A stretch of DNA of 33,416 nt from Methylococcaceae bacterium. Its GTDB lineage: Bacteria; Pseudomonadota; Gammaproteobacteria; Methylococcales; Methylomonadaceae. Shown here piece after piece: positions 52-5,936 of the stretch. A program made the position numbers and the translations under genes. The first letter of the stretch is position 1; every line of letters begins with the position of its first letter. Under the pieces are notes generated by a model that worked only from the letters and a program-made list of their open reading frames with translations, was not told the DNA's origin and did no database searches. The stretch is taken from positions 1 to 33,416 of the forward strand of contig CANNKG010000039.1 of NCBI GenBank assembly GCA_947505105.1, in the 5' to 3' direction.

Positions 52-989
52 TTAAATCTCTAAAAAATTGAACGACCTCGCTTTGCCGCCTCCCGCACAG
101 TATCTTTCATTCTCTGGGGTGATGAAAGCTTCTTCATGATCGTTAGGTTGAGTCATTAACGCGGGCAAAATACTGACGATTTCCTGATAGGCAAGACGAT
201 TTCTCCGATCCGAAATATTCGCCGCTCCGATCATCGAGGCATCGGAGGTCAAAAAACGTAGATCGCGTGCAGGCTCCTCGACGACGCGCACCCAGCCATA
301 AAGCGATTCTTGTTCGGAGAGAATTTTAAAATGCTGATAATCGCCAACAATACACAGGGTAAAATAGCGACACTGACCGCTAACTGCTTTTGTTCATAGA
401 TGGCGACAACCGTTGCCCAAGCCAGTAGAACTAAACTTAGACCAATCAATATTTCTCGAGAGCCCACCAGCGGAAACAGAAAAAATCCCAGCACTAAAGT
501 ACCTATTACGCTGCCGAGAGTGCTGATTGCGTATATATTTCCGGAGCTCGCACCAATACCCTCTAAACGGGTCGTCGCTAACTTGATCGCGAAGGGTCCG
601 ACCATGCCGAGCAAAGTCAAACAGGGCGAAAACAGCACCAACGCACTGACGAAAGATCCAGCTCTTAAGCCCAAGGGATCGGTTGCCAGTAACACCGGTC
701 GGGTTACCCACGGAATAAGCAAAATCATTAGTGCTGCCATCGCAATAATCATTGATAAACCGGTCCGTTTAGTCCGATCCGCCCAGCGACCGCCGCAAAA
801 ATAACCTAAGGCCAGCGCAATCATGGTCACGGAAATCAATGACGACCAGACATATAAACTTGCCCCATAAAATGGCGCAATCATTCTTGTACCTAAAAGT
901 TCAACGACCATTACCGCCGCGCCGGTCAAAAAAACCGTCAGATAGAGCCCGTATCGTCCTGCATTATTGAGAGAATTTTGACGCATCAT
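52..989 (-). pseudogene. Broken fused membrane / spermidine-synthase-like protein
   Basis: The first frame (989 down to about 324) encodes several membrane segments, with VVELLGTRMIAPFYG and a GGRWADR loop typical of the membrane half of fused MFS/spermidine-synthase-like proteins. At about 324 homology jumps to the -1 frame, which reads ILSEQESLYGWVRVVEEP and then LRFLTSDASMIGAANIS, the start of the soluble half. The jump lies at T_TTA_AAA (330-324, minus strand); a lost A in the A run explains it. The second frame keeps about 90 residues, then leaves the family after ALMTQP and stops at 52, before any SAM-binding glycine motif. The gene therefore has two lesions and is probably dead. I chose ATG 989, preceded by a GGA element, over the TTG at 1034. 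It lies just downstream of apbE on the same strand. The family is recognised from memory of its motifs; the frame jump is seen directly. Confidence 0.72.
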
Positions 990-1039
990 TTTTCCAATAA
1001 AGTTTCTTGAGTGAGTGAAAAGATCACCCGCCAATAATT

Positions 1040-1936
1040 TTAATTCAGCAGCGTTCCGCCGCTATTGCCAAACACATCGATCCACAAGTGCGCTAGGCCT
1101 AAATTTTCCAACCAGACAACACCCTGCTCCTCTTTAAGTAAGGCAATGGTGGACGCACTCCCGGCGACCACGCAAAAGTCGCCTAGTACGCTGACGGAAG
1201 CCAGATGTTTTACTGGCCACCCGGTTTTAGGATTTATGATGTGACTATAGCGAACACCATCGATCACGAGACACCGCGTATAATCGCCACTGCTGGCCAT
1301 AGCGCCTGCCTGTAACAGCACCGACTCTGCCACTTGCCCCGGCTTGCGCGGATGTTGAATGCCGATACACCAGGGAGCGCCATCATCACGCGGGCCGATA
1401 ATTTTAAGGTCACCACCCAAATTAATCAGGCCATGACGAATGCCAGCGGCCTGACACTGCGCCGCGACGCGGTCAACCGCATATTCTTTGACGATGCCGC
1501 CGAAATCGATTGCCATACCGGGGATTAAAAACTCAAGGATCGGGGCTTCCCAACGGAGCTTATGCCAGCCGATCTTATCCAATACGCTGGAGATATGTTC
1601 CTGCTCGGGCAATTGTGTAGCATCAAAACGCCAAACGGTTCGCAACAGACCTGAGGTAATGTCAAACAAGCCATCGCTTTGTTGATAGCAGGTTGCCGCA
1701 TAATTCAACAGACTTGCCGTTTCAGGGTCAACCGAGATCTGGCCACCTTGCGCGGCAATTCGGTTAATCGCCGAGATCACACTGTCTTCACGGTAGCGCG
1801 AATACGCAGCTTCAAGACGTCGAACTTCCGCAATGGCCGCCTCGGCAATTTGTTGCGCCAGAACTTGCGATTGGGCATATAACTGGATTTCGCAGGCAGT
1901 GCCCATAGCTTGAAAATTTACGTGAAGATATTCCAT
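1040..1936 (-). CDS. apbE: FAD:protein FMN transferase (ApbE family), divergent
   Basis: ApbE enzymes move FMN from FAD onto a Ser/Thr of a target protein by a phosphoester bond. The 298-residue product shows family landmarks in order: AMGT (about 10-13), GLFDIT (about 90-95), DFGGIVKEYAVD (144-155), NLGGD (172-176) and HIINPKTGWP (232-241). Two things are odd. The protein starts almost directly with the first beta strand (FQAMGTACEIQLY), so it has no signal peptide or lipobox and should be cytoplasmic as annotated. The usual ADALAT segment reads AGSAST, so the Asp known as a metal ligand is Gly (codon at 1160-1162) while the Thr is kept. ATG 1936 is preferred to the upstream GTG 1942 and TTG 1945. 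The gene lies 39 bp after the DUF3570 gene, whose product has likely acceptor motifs, so that is its probable substrate (inference). Confidence 0.88.
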   Translation of the reverse strand: MEYLHVNFQAMGTACEIQLYAQSQVLAQQIAEAAIAEVRRLEAAYSRYREDSVISAINRIAAQGGQISVDPETASLLNYAATCYQQSDGLFDITSGLLRTVWRFDATQLPEQEHISSVLDKIGWHKLRWEAPILEFLIPGMAIDFGGIVKEYAVDRVAAQCQAAGIRHGLINLGGDLKIIGPRDDGAPWCIGIQHPRKPGQVAESVLLQAGAMASSGDYTRCLVIDGVRYSHIINPKTGWPVKHLASVSVLGDFCVVAGSASTIALLKEEQGVVWLENLGLAHLWIDVFGNSGGTLLN

Positions 1937-1975
1937 AGCCACCAAGCGCAGAGGTGTGAATCTTGGCGAGAGAAT

Positions 1976-4564
1976 TTAAAACCCGTAACTCCAGGTCGCC
2001 GATAACGCGCCCGAACGCTCAAGTTGATAGCCATTAACATCATCGGAAACCGGTTCAATCCATTCAAAACTTAAACGATTACCTTGTAAATCGCCGCTCG
2101 GGACCGTTAAATTAAAGCCGAAACCGACATCCCAAAAGCGTCCGCCATAACTATTGCCGTAATCCATCGGGCCAATTTTGGTATAGGTATCGTTATATTG
2201 GCCTTGAAGTCCGCCCTGCACCGTATATACACCACGCACCGACAACGCGAGCCAATCGACAACGTTATAACTACCCCACGCAGTTGCTTGGAAAATATCG
2301 CCGAACGCAAACCCGGAGCTATTTTGACTTTCCAAGCGCTTGGTGCCGTTTAATTGCGCGCCCCATGACCATTCATTCCAAAGACCTGTATAGGTCAGAC
2401 TCGGTTTGAAATCCCAAGTGCCGCTGCCAAGCTGCATGCCGTAGTGAATGAAACCGATCGAAACACCGTGAGTATCTCTAAGTTTGATGCCGACATCGCC
2501 GGTTGGTGCGCTGATCCCAAGCGTGGCGTGGAAATGATGCCCAACTTGGTCAAACAGTTTGAACATCGCATACATACCGGTATCACCAACGCCACCGGTG
2601 GTATGCTCATGGTCGGCGTGAATAACTGCGGCCCGCGTGACCGGGTCCTGGGCCAAATCGACTAACGATGCTCCATCAAGTTTGCGCATCGACATATTCA
2701 TATCAACAAATTGCGGCATTAACATCAGCGTCAACCAATCGGTCGGTGCGATCATCAAGTCGAGCATGTGCATGTGCATATTCATTTCCTGCGGAGTCAC
2801 ATAACACGGATTACCATTGCACCCTTGCGTAACAATTTGTTGATCGCCCACCTGATTGAAACCATTCAAGGTGTGTCCGTTCTGCCCACTGTACATATAA
2901 CGATAGCCAACCATCATGTCGCCGGTTTTTTCGAGCATATGATCGAACATCACCCCCGCTGGCGCATGGCTTCCATGATGATGCGCGTGGCCTTCATGGC
3001 CATGACCTGCATGTTTGATATTTGCTAAGGAAACAGTTGATAAGTCGACTTTTAGCGCCGCATTTGCCATGTAGGAATTGTAATCGGCATAAGCGCCCTC
3101 ACCGCCGCCACCGAGTTTCAGCGAACCGGCATGAACATAATATTCGGCCCCTATTTCGAAACTGACGCCTTTAGCGAATTTTTTGCTGAGCGTCAACCCA
3201 CCGCTTAACGCGCCAAAACCTGACAAGCGCTGATCGCTTGAATAATTATCGGGTAATTGCGCGGTATTTAACTGGGTCACGACCGCATTGCCATCGCTGT
3301 CGATCGATTGAAACTTGCCGGGGGTCGCCTGTTTCGAGACCAGATAGGGTTGATAAAAATCGGCCTGACTTTGCGAATAATAGCGGATACGCGGGGTTAC
3401 CACCCAATCGTTGCTAATCGGCTGCACCCAGTCAGCTTCGAAGGTATGGGCATTAATCCCCCAATCGTCATGGAAAAATCGATAATCTAAATGTAAGGCA
3501 GAGTTTAAAGCATCAATATGTTGCACATAGCGCAAGCCCGTGAGCAATTGGTTGCGTTGATCGGGGCGCTTTTCCATCAACGCCCGAATATCGCCGGAAT
3601 ATACGCCATCATTGTTAGGCGCTTTAGCCGGATCAACAAACACAGTGGTAACAGTTTTGTAAGGATTAGCCAAATATCCGGTACTGCGGGTATAACCGGC
3701 ACTGAATTCAACCAAGGCGCTTTTATTGAGCACTTGAGTCAAGCCGAGTGTTGAGCCCCAGTCTTCACGTTGGGCATGCAGCGTTTTATTATTTAACGGG
3801 CCGGAAATTTCCAACTGGCTAGTCGAATGCGTCGCGTTATAGGTTTTTAAACCACCGGAGGTTTCATAGATATAAGGCGTTGCATCATGATCCAGAAGCG
3901 CCTTAGTTTCACTTGAGGTGTAGCTTAAATTCCCGCTAAGGCTGGTCAGTTTTTGGTTAAAATCCAGCCGTCCACCGACATTACCAAACACCGACAAGTA
4001 ATCATTTTCACTCGACACCCCAGCACCGCCCTGAACTTCCGCTTCATTCCAGGCGTAACTCAAATTCACGTTGCCTTGTTTACGCGTTTCAGGCGAAGCC
4101 ATCGCAAGGGTATGGACTAACTGGCTGGCTTGCTGCTGTGCGCCAGTTACCGGATCAAGCGTTACGGGTTTATAGGCGGCATCAAGGGTCGCCACGCCCG
4201 GATTCAGCAACGGTGATGCCCCACTGACACTTTTGGCATGATTGCCGCCAAAAGCCAAGGGCGCGGTAGTCACCGGCGTTGCTCCGCTCCAGGTATCTTG
4301 CAGATAATCAAAGGCCAGCTTGATTCGATCGGAAATTTTAAGATGGGTCTTGCCGAAAATGCTTTCGACTTCAATTGGGTTGAAATCACTAGCCACGCCA
4401 CCGAGGTCGCGCTTACCCTCCTGGTAATGACCATATTGAAAGGTCGTGTCTTGCCCCTCGGCCTGTCCGGTGTCGGGCATCATCAGTCCCGGCAACGCAA
4501 GTGCTGCAACCGTCAGCGCTTGTAATGCCGGATTTACGAAATTCGTCGGCTTAATAACAGCCAC
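1976..4564 (-). CDS. DUF3570 outer-membrane beta-barrel protein fused to a second barrel-like domain
   Basis: This is an exported, probably outer-membrane protein. From the GTG at 4564 it has 862 residues. The signal peptide spans about 1-36 (hydrophobic LQALTVAALALPGLMM). Next comes FQYGHYQEGKRDL, typical of DUF3570, then alternating amphipathic strands to about residue 510. DTWSGAT (90-96) and SGAS (114-117) resemble ApbE flavinylation acceptor motifs. A His-rich linker (518-533) leads to a second barrel-like region with a Met/His-rich stretch (594-604), MNMSM (622-626) and DHEHT (651-655). The protein ends in Phe (ATWSYGF), as outer-membrane barrels usually do. DUF3570 proteins are, as I recall, usually about half this length. 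An upstream in-frame ATG at 4621 would overlap the DUF4266 gene by 71 bp and add an Arg-rich stretch, so GTG 4564 (14-bp overlap, G-rich sequence upstream) is preferred. Function is unknown; metal-linked redox chemistry is inference. Confidence 0.85.
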   Translation of the reverse strand: MAVIKPTNFVNPALQALTVAALALPGLMMPDTGQAEGQDTTFQYGHYQEGKRDLGGVASDFNPIEVESIFGKTHLKISDRIKLAFDYLQDTWSGATPVTTAPLAFGGNHAKSVSGASPLLNPGVATLDAAYKPVTLDPVTGAQQQASQLVHTLAMASPETRKQGNVNLSYAWNEAEVQGGAGVSSENDYLSVFGNVGGRLDFNQKLTSLSGNLSYTSSETKALLDHDATPYIYETSGGLKTYNATHSTSQLEISGPLNNKTLHAQREDWGSTLGLTQVLNKSALVEFSAGYTRSTGYLANPYKTVTTVFVDPAKAPNNDGVYSGDIRALMEKRPDQRNQLLTGLRYVQHIDALNSALHLDYRFFHDDWGINAHTFEADWVQPISNDWVVTPRIRYYSQSQADFYQPYLVSKQATPGKFQSIDSDGNAVVTQLNTAQLPDNYSSDQRLSGFGALSGGLTLSKKFAKGVSFEIGAEYYVHAGSLKLGGGGEGAYADYNSYMANAALKVDLSTVSLANIKHAGHGHEGHAHHHGSHAPAGVMFDHMLEKTGDMMVGYRYMYSGQNGHTLNGFNQVGDQQIVTQGCNGNPCYVTPQEMNMHMHMLDLMIAPTDWLTLMLMPQFVDMNMSMRKLDGASLVDLAQDPVTRAAVIHADHEHTTGGVGDTGMYAMFKLFDQVGHHFHATLGISAPTGDVGIKLRDTHGVSIGFIHYGMQLGSGTWDFKPSLTYTGLWNEWSWGAQLNGTKRLESQNSSGFAFGDIFQATAWGSYNVVDWLALSVRGVYTVQGGLQGQYNDTYTKIGPMDYGNSYGGRFWDVGFGFNLTVPSGDLQGNRLSFEWIEPVSDDVNGYQLERSGALSATWSYGF

Positions 4565-4760
4565 AACCGCCCCCGCCCGTCGAACCGCCGCCCGAAGCCG
4601 CTTCACGACTGCCATAGACATGCGAACGCAGCAAGTTTTGCATTGGATTAGGGTCTAAAGCCATTTCGGGTTTAGCGAGAATACCGCGTTCCCACGGTGA
4701 TATCTGAGTACAAGCAGAAGTCAGTCCTACCAAAGCGATAATCAGCAAACGGCTTTTCAT
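4551..4760 (-). CDS. DUF4266 lipoprotein with Gly/Cys C-terminal tail
   Basis: The product is a 69-residue lipoprotein. A short hydrophobic leader ends in the lipobox LTSAC (Cys17), so the mature protein is lipid-anchored. The core SPWERGILAKPEMALDP and HVYGSREAASGG is what I recognise as DUF4266. The C terminus is a low-complexity tail ending GGGGCGCY, with Cys66 and Cys68. Its role is not established; a paired-Cys tail suggests metal binding, disulfide exchange or modification. It sits between a TlpA-type thiol oxidoreductase and the DUF3570 gene. The codons for the Gly/Cys tail also supply the G-rich upstream region and start of the DUF3570 gene, so the two are probably translationally coupled. 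Confidence 0.85.
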   Translation of the reverse strand: MKSRLLIIALVGLTSACTQISPWERGILAKPEMALDPNPMQNLLRSHVYGSREAASGGGSTGGGGCGCY

Positions 4761-4864: not shown

Positions 4865-5368
4865 TCATTTTTCGGCCAATAATTGCTCAATCTGAGTGCG
4901 AAGCGCTTGGGCATCATCATCCTTGAAACCTAAATGCACCTGCCGAATGACTCCTTTTCGATCAATGAGGTAAGACGACGGCATGGCTTGGACATCGAAA
5001 TCTTTAGCGCATTGTTTGGTCGCATCGACCAACACGCTAAAATTAGTCGGGTGCTCGGTCAAAAATGCCTTAGCATCATCAACTTGTTCATCCAGGTTTA
5101 CCACCGCCACTTCCAGACCTTGAGCTTTCAATTCGTGATTTATAGCATTCAGAAAAGCAAAGGATTTGGCACAAGGCGGACACCAGGAAGCCCAAAAGTC
5201 GACGTACAAGACTTTCCCCACCAAGGGTTGAAAATCAAAATTTTGCTCAGTCGCTAAGGAGGTCAATTGGCAATGCGGAACTTTCTGCCCAACTTCAGCG
5301 GCATGAAGTGACGAAATAAAACCAAACACGACAGTGACACAACAAACTTTAAAAATACGCAATATCAT
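4865..5368 (-). CDS. TlpA/ResA-type periplasmic thiol-disulfide oxidoreductase
   Basis: This 167-residue protein has a Sec signal peptide (about 1-24, ending near LHAAE) and one thioredoxin fold. The active site is WCPPC (Cys63 and Cys66) after VLYVDFWAS, and the cis-proline is in AMPSSYLID (Pro130). Extra cysteines at 33 and 120 could take part in a relay. Such proteins usually reduce, or sometimes oxidise, specific exported cysteine partners. It is the first gene of the run TlpA, DUF4266, DUF3570, ApbE, and the nearest exported Cys-pair protein is the DUF4266 lipoprotein 104 bp downstream. That lipoprotein is therefore the likeliest partner (inference). No lipobox is seen, so a periplasmic location, soluble or tethered by an uncleaved leader, is expected. 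Confidence 0.88.
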   Translation of the reverse strand: MILRIFKVCCVTVVFGFISSLHAAEVGQKVPHCQLTSLATEQNFDFQPLVGKVLYVDFWASWCPPCAKSFAFLNAINHELKAQGLEVAVVNLDEQVDDAKAFLTEHPTNFSVLVDATKQCAKDFDVQAMPSSYLIDRKGVIRQVHLGFKDDDAQALRTQIEQLLAEK

Positions 5369-5480: not shown

Positions 5481-5936
5481 TTAGTCAAGTTGATAACCCA
5501 CCACATCGGTCCCGGTATGGTTACCCTCGGCAGTTTCGCAGTGATAGGTCAAAAAAACATTACGACTCCCTTCTGCCGTTTTATTGATCGAAACATAGTA
5601 TGATCCTGCGCCGCCTTTCAGTGAAACGAACGAACTCCCTTTACCATCTCCCGACACTGGATCGGTCACATTAATCATTTTATTGTTTTTCAAAATTTGG
5701 GCACTGAGTAGCATTCCCGAAACTGGAACTGAAAGATCGGTAATCTGGATCGTCAGACGATCTGCAGGGCCATTACCATCATTACCACAGCTAATAGCAC
5801 CAAGCGCCACAGCATTCGGATTATTCCCGGCACCGTCAAGAGTAAATCCTAATTCGTGCGCCATCACAGTTCCTACAACGAGATTGGATATCACTAAGCC
5901 TACTGCTAATTTATTCATTTTGTCTTTTTGGGTCAT
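5481..5936 (-). CDS. Small exported protein of unknown function
   Basis: I do not recognise this 151-residue protein. It has a clear Sec signal peptide (MNKLAVGLVISNLVVGTVMA, cleavage predicted before HELGF at about residue 26). The mature domain is about 125 residues with alternating hydrophobic strands, many Gly/Asn residues and exactly two cysteines (50 and 133) that could form one disulfide. This suggests a small secreted or periplasmic beta-sandwich. The start could be ATG 5936 or ATG 5918; neither has a strong ribosome-binding site. It lies 112 bp upstream of the TlpA gene on the same strand, so it may belong to that cluster. A thiol oxidoreductase next to a two-cysteine exported protein is suggestive only. 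Confidence 0.72.
   Translation of the reverse strand: MTQKDKMNKLAVGLVISNLVVGTVMAHELGFTLDGAGNNPNAVALGAISCGNDGNGPADRLTIQITDLSVPVSGMLLSAQILKNNKMINVTDPVSGDGKGSSFVSLKGGAGSYYVSINKTAEGSRNVFLTYHCETAEGNHTGTDVVGYQLD

Follow-up and report, generated by a model that had tools for sequence, protein, structure and literature searches.

Covalent attachment of flavin mononucleotide (FMN) to DUF3570 proteins is known from Meheust 2021 (PMC8238504), the main text of which reports two conserved [S/T]GA[S/T] motifs (logo of 228) in DUF3570 proteins associated with ApbE, the flavin adenine dinucleotide (FAD):protein FMN transferase. The DUF3570 protein of Chlorobium luteolum (ABB24424) was flavinylated by its ApbE, the modification being lost only when both serines were replaced. 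The flavinylated protein was found mostly in the cell pellet and was purified denatured; according to the methods, DUF2271 and its ApbE were cloned without their signals, and DUF3570 by a 'similar cloning strategy'. The clusters described there associate DUF3570 with genes for a thioredoxin-like protein (PF13899), DUF4266 and, in some of the clusters, DsbD, the VIT1 iron transporter being present in 25 clusters. The word 'barrel' does not occur in the main text, where 'outer membrane' is used once, for TonB receptors. Among open-access full texts, DUF3570 and DUF4266 were each found only in this paper, and the main texts of the later ApbE papers PMC11334425 and PMC12052999 do not mention DUF3570. 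The present work deals with a related locus of a Methylococcaceae bacterium, carried by a stretch of 33,416 nucleotides (contig CANNKG010000039.1, hereafter the window), in which a DUF3570 gene is followed by apbE. The domain, the two motifs, the cognate apbE and the DUF4266 and thioredoxin-like neighbours are common to the window and to the system of Meheust 2021; the window chain differs in that it goes on through a His-rich linker into another barrel, and we found no description of a barrel, an outer-membrane place or the ApbE compartment in the main text of the earlier work. The initial annotation of this DNA, which had proposed a flavinylated DUF3570 barrel as a new kind of redox protein, was right in substance, not new, as covalent flavinylation of DUF3570 by ApbE is already published there. 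Beyond that publication, our computations bring the barrel prediction, the fusion to a Met-bearing second barrel and a clade of ApbE devoid of signal peptide and of an active-site Asp; the second barrel, the missing ApbE signal peptide and the changed ApbE active site were also absent from the initial annotation. With some reserve, we consider it probable that the locus encodes a flavinylated two-barrel outer-membrane protein, to which FMN would be added in the cytosol by the adjacent clade ApbE, and which would then be exported and serve in metal reduction.

Electrons are handled at or through an outer-membrane barrel by the MtrCAB porin-cytochrome conduits, to which the window protein offers an analogy; the CxxCH haem motif was found in 0 of the 77 aligned rows of the barrel chain, neighbouring genes not having been searched. 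The ApbE enzymes of Escherichia coli, Vibrio cholerae and Treponema pallidum share family PF02424 and the conserved His, SGD and Thr with the window enzyme, which differs from them by the lack of a signal peptide, a Gly in place of D280 and a Glu after the Lys. The cytosolic ApbE of Klebsiella pneumoniae is described as having no signal peptide, like the window ApbE, but its substrate is the soluble intracellular fumarate reductase (PMC12052999), whereas the window substrate is exported. Two barrels on a single chain have been predicted for GfcD, described as a capsule export protein (PMC11494523).

Both motifs put forward in the initial annotation, DTWSGAT and SGAS on the minus strand (Table 1), are reproduced exactly by translation. 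Residues of the DUF3570 protein are numbered from GTG 4564 and those of ApbE from ATG 1936. Conservation was evaluated on an alignment of 77 rows, composed of the window and 76 related loci; these loci were drawn from 80 of 291 relatives, 4 of the 80 being dropped on account of stops, frameshifts or N. The acceptor of motif 1 is Thr in 75 rows, Ser in one and a gap in one (Ser/Thr in 76/76), and that of motif 2 is Ser in 58 and Thr in 19 (77/77). The Asp, Gly and Ala of motif 1 are invariant (76/76 rows) and its fourth residue is Ser in 57, Gly in 18 and Ala in one. The DUF3570 domain contains 79 Ser/Thr positions, 14 of which are Ser/Thr in at least 98% of the rows; among these 14, only positions 117 and 397 show Ser and Thr each at 10% or more. 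A wider gammaproteobacterial set was also aligned (88 of 92 DUF3570 matches, at least 395 amino acids, one without the motif region), and Ser or Thr occupies the motif 1 acceptor position in 87/87 proteins with data, 78 of the form [DE]xx[STGAI]G[AS][ST] and 9 DxxSSAS-like. Since the acceptors are conserved across homologues, the motifs are better supported by this alignment than by 20,000 shuffles of the mature protein, which produced at least one [ST]GA[ST] in 16% of cases, at least two in 1.2% and D-x-x-[ST]GA[ST] in 1.1%. Acceptor conservation, together with the published two-site homologue (PMC8238504), agrees with the initial proposal that the DUF3570 protein is an ApbE substrate with two sites.

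The DUF3570 family (Pfam PF12094) is matched with an E value of 2.1e-116 (389.7 bits for a cut-off of 25) over residues 34-516 of the 881-residue open reading frame, and accounts only for the N-terminal portion of the encoded chain. Export is suggested by a hydrophobic N-terminal stretch of mean hydropathy 2.02, a crude signal-peptide measure that was positive in 83 of 87 DUF3570 proteins; the fused protein ends with Phe in 74/77 rows. Modelling of the 862-residue chain with AlphaFold2 and the 77-row alignment (predicted local distance difference test score, pLDDT, 83.8; predicted template modelling score, pTM, 0.78) placed two barrels at about residues 39-507 and 550-862. The DUF3570 domain alone, modelled with 76 rows (L214 left out), reached pLDDT 91.1 and pTM 0.87, with 16 strands by our count, and its best 50 VIA-align matches are all outer-membrane barrels (Z 15.5-21.8, BamA first), in agreement with the barrel assignment of the initial annotation. 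That annotation had also located both motifs in the first long loop, possibly facing outwards. In the model, motif 2 indeed lies in the long loop, but this loop is loop 2, joining strands 3 and 4, and motif 1 is on strand 3. From the alternation of polar and apolar residues on this strand, Thr96 probably faces the barrel lumen. Loop 2 (residues 103-148), with Ser117, is probably external, as the initial annotation had suggested, because both barrel ends are periplasmic and the long loops outside in such barrels; the sidedness of the flavins is deduced from this topology, and model confidence is below 50 around Ser117 (residues ~112-119). A kinship with MtrB was considered and rejected: the top Foldseek match of the whole chain (6r2q_B, E 2.9e-13) spans both barrels with a root-mean-square deviation (rmsd) of 21 Å and was regarded as an artefact, MtrB is not at the head of the domain-only Foldseek list, and no homology is claimed.

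The linker between the two barrels holds 3 to 13 His in every row (77/77). The second barrel resembles most closely the COG4313 channel 4rl8 (VIA-align Z 22.8, rmsd 2.8, 254 residues aligned) and FapF 5o65 (Z 22.1); sequence identity with these is 16% and 13%, respectively, and FapF is an amyloid secretion protein. In the fused family, 11 Met are conserved at 95% or more on the neighbouring strands 550-568, 589-605 and 611-628, and according to a hydropathy test they likely line the inner face of the barrel. Two Cys, C582 and C587 in the window protein, are present in 77/77 rows. The Pfam family PF13557 (Phenol_MetA_deg) matches one of 21 second-barrel members (E 3.1e-7), the window member being unmatched at E values up to 1. 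In the first 81 regions (the window and 80 others, picked by DUF3570 or long frames), 48 of 50 second-barrel matches are on a DUF3570 chain, the remaining two being disrupted genes next to fragments of DUF3570. In the phylum sample, relatives of the second barrel occur in 34 of 299 genomes; most of them are stand-alone, because all but three frames measure only 232-446 amino acids. Short-frame relatives of 349-355 amino acids were also observed in three genomes of the same family as the window (G378, G385 and G399). Among the 80 loci with a fused protein, 68 are labelled as methanotroph groups (Methylococcales, Methylococcaceae, genera such as Methylobacter) and 9 as uncultured proteobacterium, the remaining labels being one each of a gammaproteobacterial metagenome-assembled genome, Nitrosomonas and Methylotenera. 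The fusion of DUF3570 to the second barrel is a trait of this mostly methanotroph lineage.

The window ApbE passes the cut-off of Pfam PF02424 (256.8 bits for 25.6) and falls below that of the NCBIfam equivalog PRK10461 (NF007774; 103.1 bits for 498). About 20 residues precede its domain in the open frame, with no signal-like stretch or lipobox. When read from the first start codon, 43 of the 45 ApbEs located at most 2.6 kb from DUF3570 are without a hydrophobic stretch, three of the 43 being scored so by default as no upstream start exists; a laxer count, reading from the preceding stop codon, gives 40 of 45. Five of 50 matches, fragments of less than 230 amino acids, had been dropped before these counts. 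The two clear exceptions with a signal stretch (L133 and L136) accompany the DUF3570 proteins of SSAS type. For comparison, 31 other ApbE rows were collected, namely that of contig C118 of the same genome and 30 of 44 matches in 21 genomes: 23 have a hydrophobic stretch, a simple pattern recognizing a lipobox in 16 of these, and the 8 signal-less rows, three of which are genes fetched twice, fall in the DUF3570 clade. In the tree, 51 signal-less rows (48 distinct) are gathered on one side of a branch with a support of 100/100, in a bootstrap not fully settled. Two active-site positions distinguish this clade. The residue after the conserved Lys is Glu in 51/51 clade rows vs Gly in 25/25 signal-bearing ApbEs, and the metal-ligand Asp of DAxxT is Gly in 51/51 clade rows vs Asp in 25/25 signal-bearing ApbEs. 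The catalytic His and, within SGD, the Ser and the Asp are unchanged in 51/51 rows, and the Thr in 50/51. The replaced Asp aligns with D280 of E. coli, described as a metal-site ligand (PMC4767422), and the new Glu sits at the E. coli E169 position. By its position, the replaced Asp would also be Asp285 of V. cholerae ApbE, described as a conserved member of a triad (PMC12052999). Taken on their sequences, the adjacent ApbEs form a distinct, DUF3570-linked and apparently cytosolic clade.

A second type of DUF3570, with the DxxSSAS-like motif, was met in 9 proteins (L132-L137 and L139-L141). Two of these have a neighbouring ApbE with a signal peptide and an intact metal-site Asp, and in G335 and G350 the same SSAS-linked ApbE subclade is encoded on the same contig, at ~11 and ~22 kb. 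The SSAS-type DUF3570 and its signal-bearing ApbE may be a periplasmic counterpart of the window system.

The co-occurrence of both genes was examined in 369 gammaproteobacterial genomes, clade-type ApbE being defined by a profile match with E at most 1e-60 and strong DUF3570 by a best E below 1e-48. Among the matches listed, clade-type ApbE is found in 52 genomes, 51 of which have DUF3570; it is present in 49 of 50 genomes with strong DUF3570, in 2 of 45 with weaker DUF3570 and in 1 of 274 without DUF3570 (strong DUF3570 vs clade-type ApbE, Fisher p 8e-35, kinship uncorrected). At shorter range, an apbE gene lies within 4 kb of 24/48 fused, 21/30 unfused and 2/9 SSAS-type DUF3570 proteins. 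Six of the 33 GA-type DUF3570 proteins without a near apbE sit close to the end of their region, and an ApbE is encoded somewhere in the genome in 21/21 genomes checked. One genome (G387) carries 13 full-length fused DUF3570 copies (L072, L087, L089, L091-L093, L096, L099), none of them with apbE within 4 kb. The genome of the window itself contains a second cluster (contig C13; L101 5317-7869) with DUF4266, an unfused DUF3570 of 416 amino acids, the motifs of which read RDVISGASP and KQILSGASI, and a clade-type ApbE.

The organization of the window locus is given in Table 1. The start of the fused protein was probably GTG 4564 in our judgement, because the DUF4266 gene overlaps the first ATG of the open reading frame. 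The distance of 39 bp to apbE given in the initial annotation, measured from the stop at 1976, holds with ATG 1936 and becomes 30 bp with TTG 1945.

Table 1. Coordinates of the features of the DUF3570-apbE locus in the window
Feature	Position	Strand	Description
Fused DUF3570 protein	1976..4564	-	862 aa from GTG 4564; 881 aa from ATG 4621; signal peptide, DUF3570 barrel, His-rich linker, second barrel
DUF3570 domain	3044..4450	-	residues 39-507; predicted 16-strand outer-membrane barrel
Flavinylation motif 1, DTWSGAT	4277..4297	-	acceptor Thr96 (4279-4277), in strand 3, probably facing the lumen
Flavinylation motif 2, SGAS	4214..4225	-	acceptor Ser117 (4216-4214), in loop 2 (residues 103-148)
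His-rich linker between barrels	2954..3049	-	about residues 506-537; pLDDT <50 at 512-529
Second barrel	1979..2917	-	residues 550-862, ~12 strands, three of them with conserved Met on the likely inner face
ApbE, FAD:protein FMN transferase	1040..1945	-	without signal peptide; Pfam PF02424 E 3.2e-76
ApbE clade-specific changes	1486-1484; 1162-1160	-	Glu151; Gly259
DUF4266 small lipoprotein	4551..4760	-	PF14086 E 3.3e-21; lipobox LTSAC, C-terminal CGCY; overlaps DUF3570 gene start
Thioredoxin-like (TlpA/ResA-like) protein	4865..5368	-	probably secreted; Redoxin PF08534 E 1.2e-23; ResA-like NCBIfam match below cut-off
151-aa protein	5481..5936	-	probably secreted; conserved partner gene, family in 66/81 loci; without credible Pfam match

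Mechanical gene calls over the 81 loci (the window and 80 others, many of whose contigs end within the cluster) gave the fused protein in 81, the family of the 151-residue protein in 66, the thioredoxin-like protein in 63, ApbE in 52, DUF4266 in 44 and a family of 365 residues in 43; a family with a HEAT_2 match in the one member scanned was called in 33 and a major facilitator superfamily (MFS)/spermidine synthase family in 25. The DUF4266 figure is an undercount because this gene overlaps its neighbour. The thioredoxin-like gene product matches the Redoxin, AhpC-TSA and Thioredoxin families of Pfam. The DUF4266 protein ends with CGCY in 33/38 matches of the family of the window and with CGCN in 37/43 from other sampled families. 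Pfam and PDB profile searches of the 365-residue (e.g. L148 3230-4204) and 151-residue families, the proteins of both being probably secreted, returned nothing usable. By a simple pattern, an Ala-His junction close to the signal-peptide end is observed in 37/46 and 57/104 of their members, respectively; such a junction resembles that of N-terminal-His copper proteins such as YcnI. An MFS/spermidine-synthase-like open reading frame near the contig end (window 249-1034, minus strand, 261 amino acids), covering only positions 2-202 of a model of 480, is truncated or frameshifted.

The proposed mechanism can be summarized as follows. Thr96, on strand 3 in the lumen, and Ser117, in loop 2, would each receive FMN from the adjacent ApbE, the transfer taking place in the cytosol on the unfolded or nascent DUF3570 chain. 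The flavin-bearing precursor would then cross SecYEG, which is said, from work of Bonardi in 2011, to tolerate sizable attached groups, and the barrel assembly machinery (BAM) would fold the DUF3570 barrel around the flavins. Electrons would be delivered by periplasmic thiol proteins, namely the TlpA-like protein and the DUF4266 lipoprotein with its CxC motif, and the barrel pair would reduce a metal at the cell surface and pass it inward, copper being one guess for methanotrophs. The timing of the transfer, the electron donors and the metal substrate of this scheme are inferred. As the ApbE is without a signal peptide and its substrate is exported, the transfer of FMN probably precedes export and takes place in the cytosol. 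The barrel seemingly does not have to be folded in a membrane, on account of the truncated constructs and of the pellet location and denatured purification described in the text and methods of PMC8238504; recovery of the denatured product from the pellet fits transfer onto an unfolded chain.

A number of observations weigh against this scheme. At motif 1, 19/76 rows deviate from the strict consensus by a Gly or Ala as fourth residue. The activity of the clade ApbE is not guaranteed, because an Asp conserved as a triad or metal-site residue has been lost, and the same genome also encodes, on contig C118, a lipoprotein-type ApbE that could act in the periplasm. In the sampled regions, apbE is found at most 4 kb away for only 24/48 fused proteins. 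The ApbE type was assigned in the class and phylum counts by profile score and not by the two diagnostic residues, and the association is looser in the phylum sample, where, counted by eye, DUF3570 is present in 11 of 16 genomes with clade-type ApbE, and 9 of 11 genomes with strong DUF3570 have clade-type ApbE while 2 of 11 do not. Concerning copper, the idea rests on Met and His patterns, the hydropathy test barely separates the two faces on two of the three Met strands, and neither shared copper genes nor another common theme was seen in the 4 neighbourhoods inspected of 15 around stand-alone second-barrel relatives.

The best-placed alternative rivals the copper guess only and leaves flavinylation untouched. 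The flavinylated barrel would be an iron or thiol redox device, in which electrons would run from a DsbD-type protein to the thioredoxin-like protein, then to DUF4266 and to FMN, and would serve to reduce iron or in the thiol chemistry of the envelope. This is quite possible, though somewhat short of an even chance. The DsbD, thioredoxin-like and DUF4266 genes that the main text of PMC8238504 describes in DUF3570 clusters, and the VIT1 gene of 25 clusters, argue for it, as do the thioredoxin-like and DUF4266 genes of the window; it explains neither the linker with at least 3 His in 77/77 rows nor the Met conserved in the second barrel. In the copper version of the scheme, the two-barrel protein of methanotrophs would reduce copper at the cell surface and conduct it as Cu(I). 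Cu(II) would first bind to the His-rich linker and to partner proteins with an N-terminal His; once reduced by FMN within the DUF3570 lumen, the copper would travel along the Met-lined second barrel. The flavins would be loaded in the cytosol by a subclass of ApbE whose metal site has been remodelled (Asp to Gly, Gly to Glu), and would cross SecYEG covalently bound to the unfolded chain. In this complete form the copper version appears quite unlikely. Nothing joining copper, methanotroph and FMN transferase was found in the open-access literature, and copper is no more likely than an iron or thiol role.

A further alternative concerns the enzyme. The adjacent ApbE could be inactive or otherwise employed, and the DUF3570 protein flavinylated in the periplasm by a lipoprotein-type ApbE encoded elsewhere. 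The replacement of Asp by Gly in 51/51 clade rows speaks for this possibility, as do the signal-bearing ApbE of contig C118 and the fused copies devoid of a near apbE. However, every clade row retains the His and the SGD Ser and Asp, all but one retain the Thr, and the new Glu is present in 51/51; with these residues retained and a Glu added beside the Lys, the active site looks re-tuned rather than decayed. The clade type of ApbE moreover follows strong DUF3570 across the class, and a cognate ApbE flavinylated the DUF3570 protein studied in PMC8238504. Periplasmic modification by another ApbE is rated as rather unlikely. Lastly, it is extremely improbable that the SGA[S/T] matches are chance occurrences in a Ser/Thr/Gly-rich loop of an ordinary porin: single matches are frequent enough among the shuffles to suggest it, but pairs are rare, both acceptors stay Ser/Thr in homologues, for which reason a chance origin was rejected, and a homologue has been modified experimentally (PMC8238504).

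If the proposed cytosolic attachment of FMN is true, it would be an exception to the usual view that exported flavoproteins receive their flavin in the periplasm, and Sec would move chains bearing a covalent redox cofactor. In the DUF3570-linked ApbE clade, nature has in effect tested which acidic residue the active site requires. The fused Met-bearing barrel is a concrete candidate for surface metal handling in methane-oxidising bacteria.

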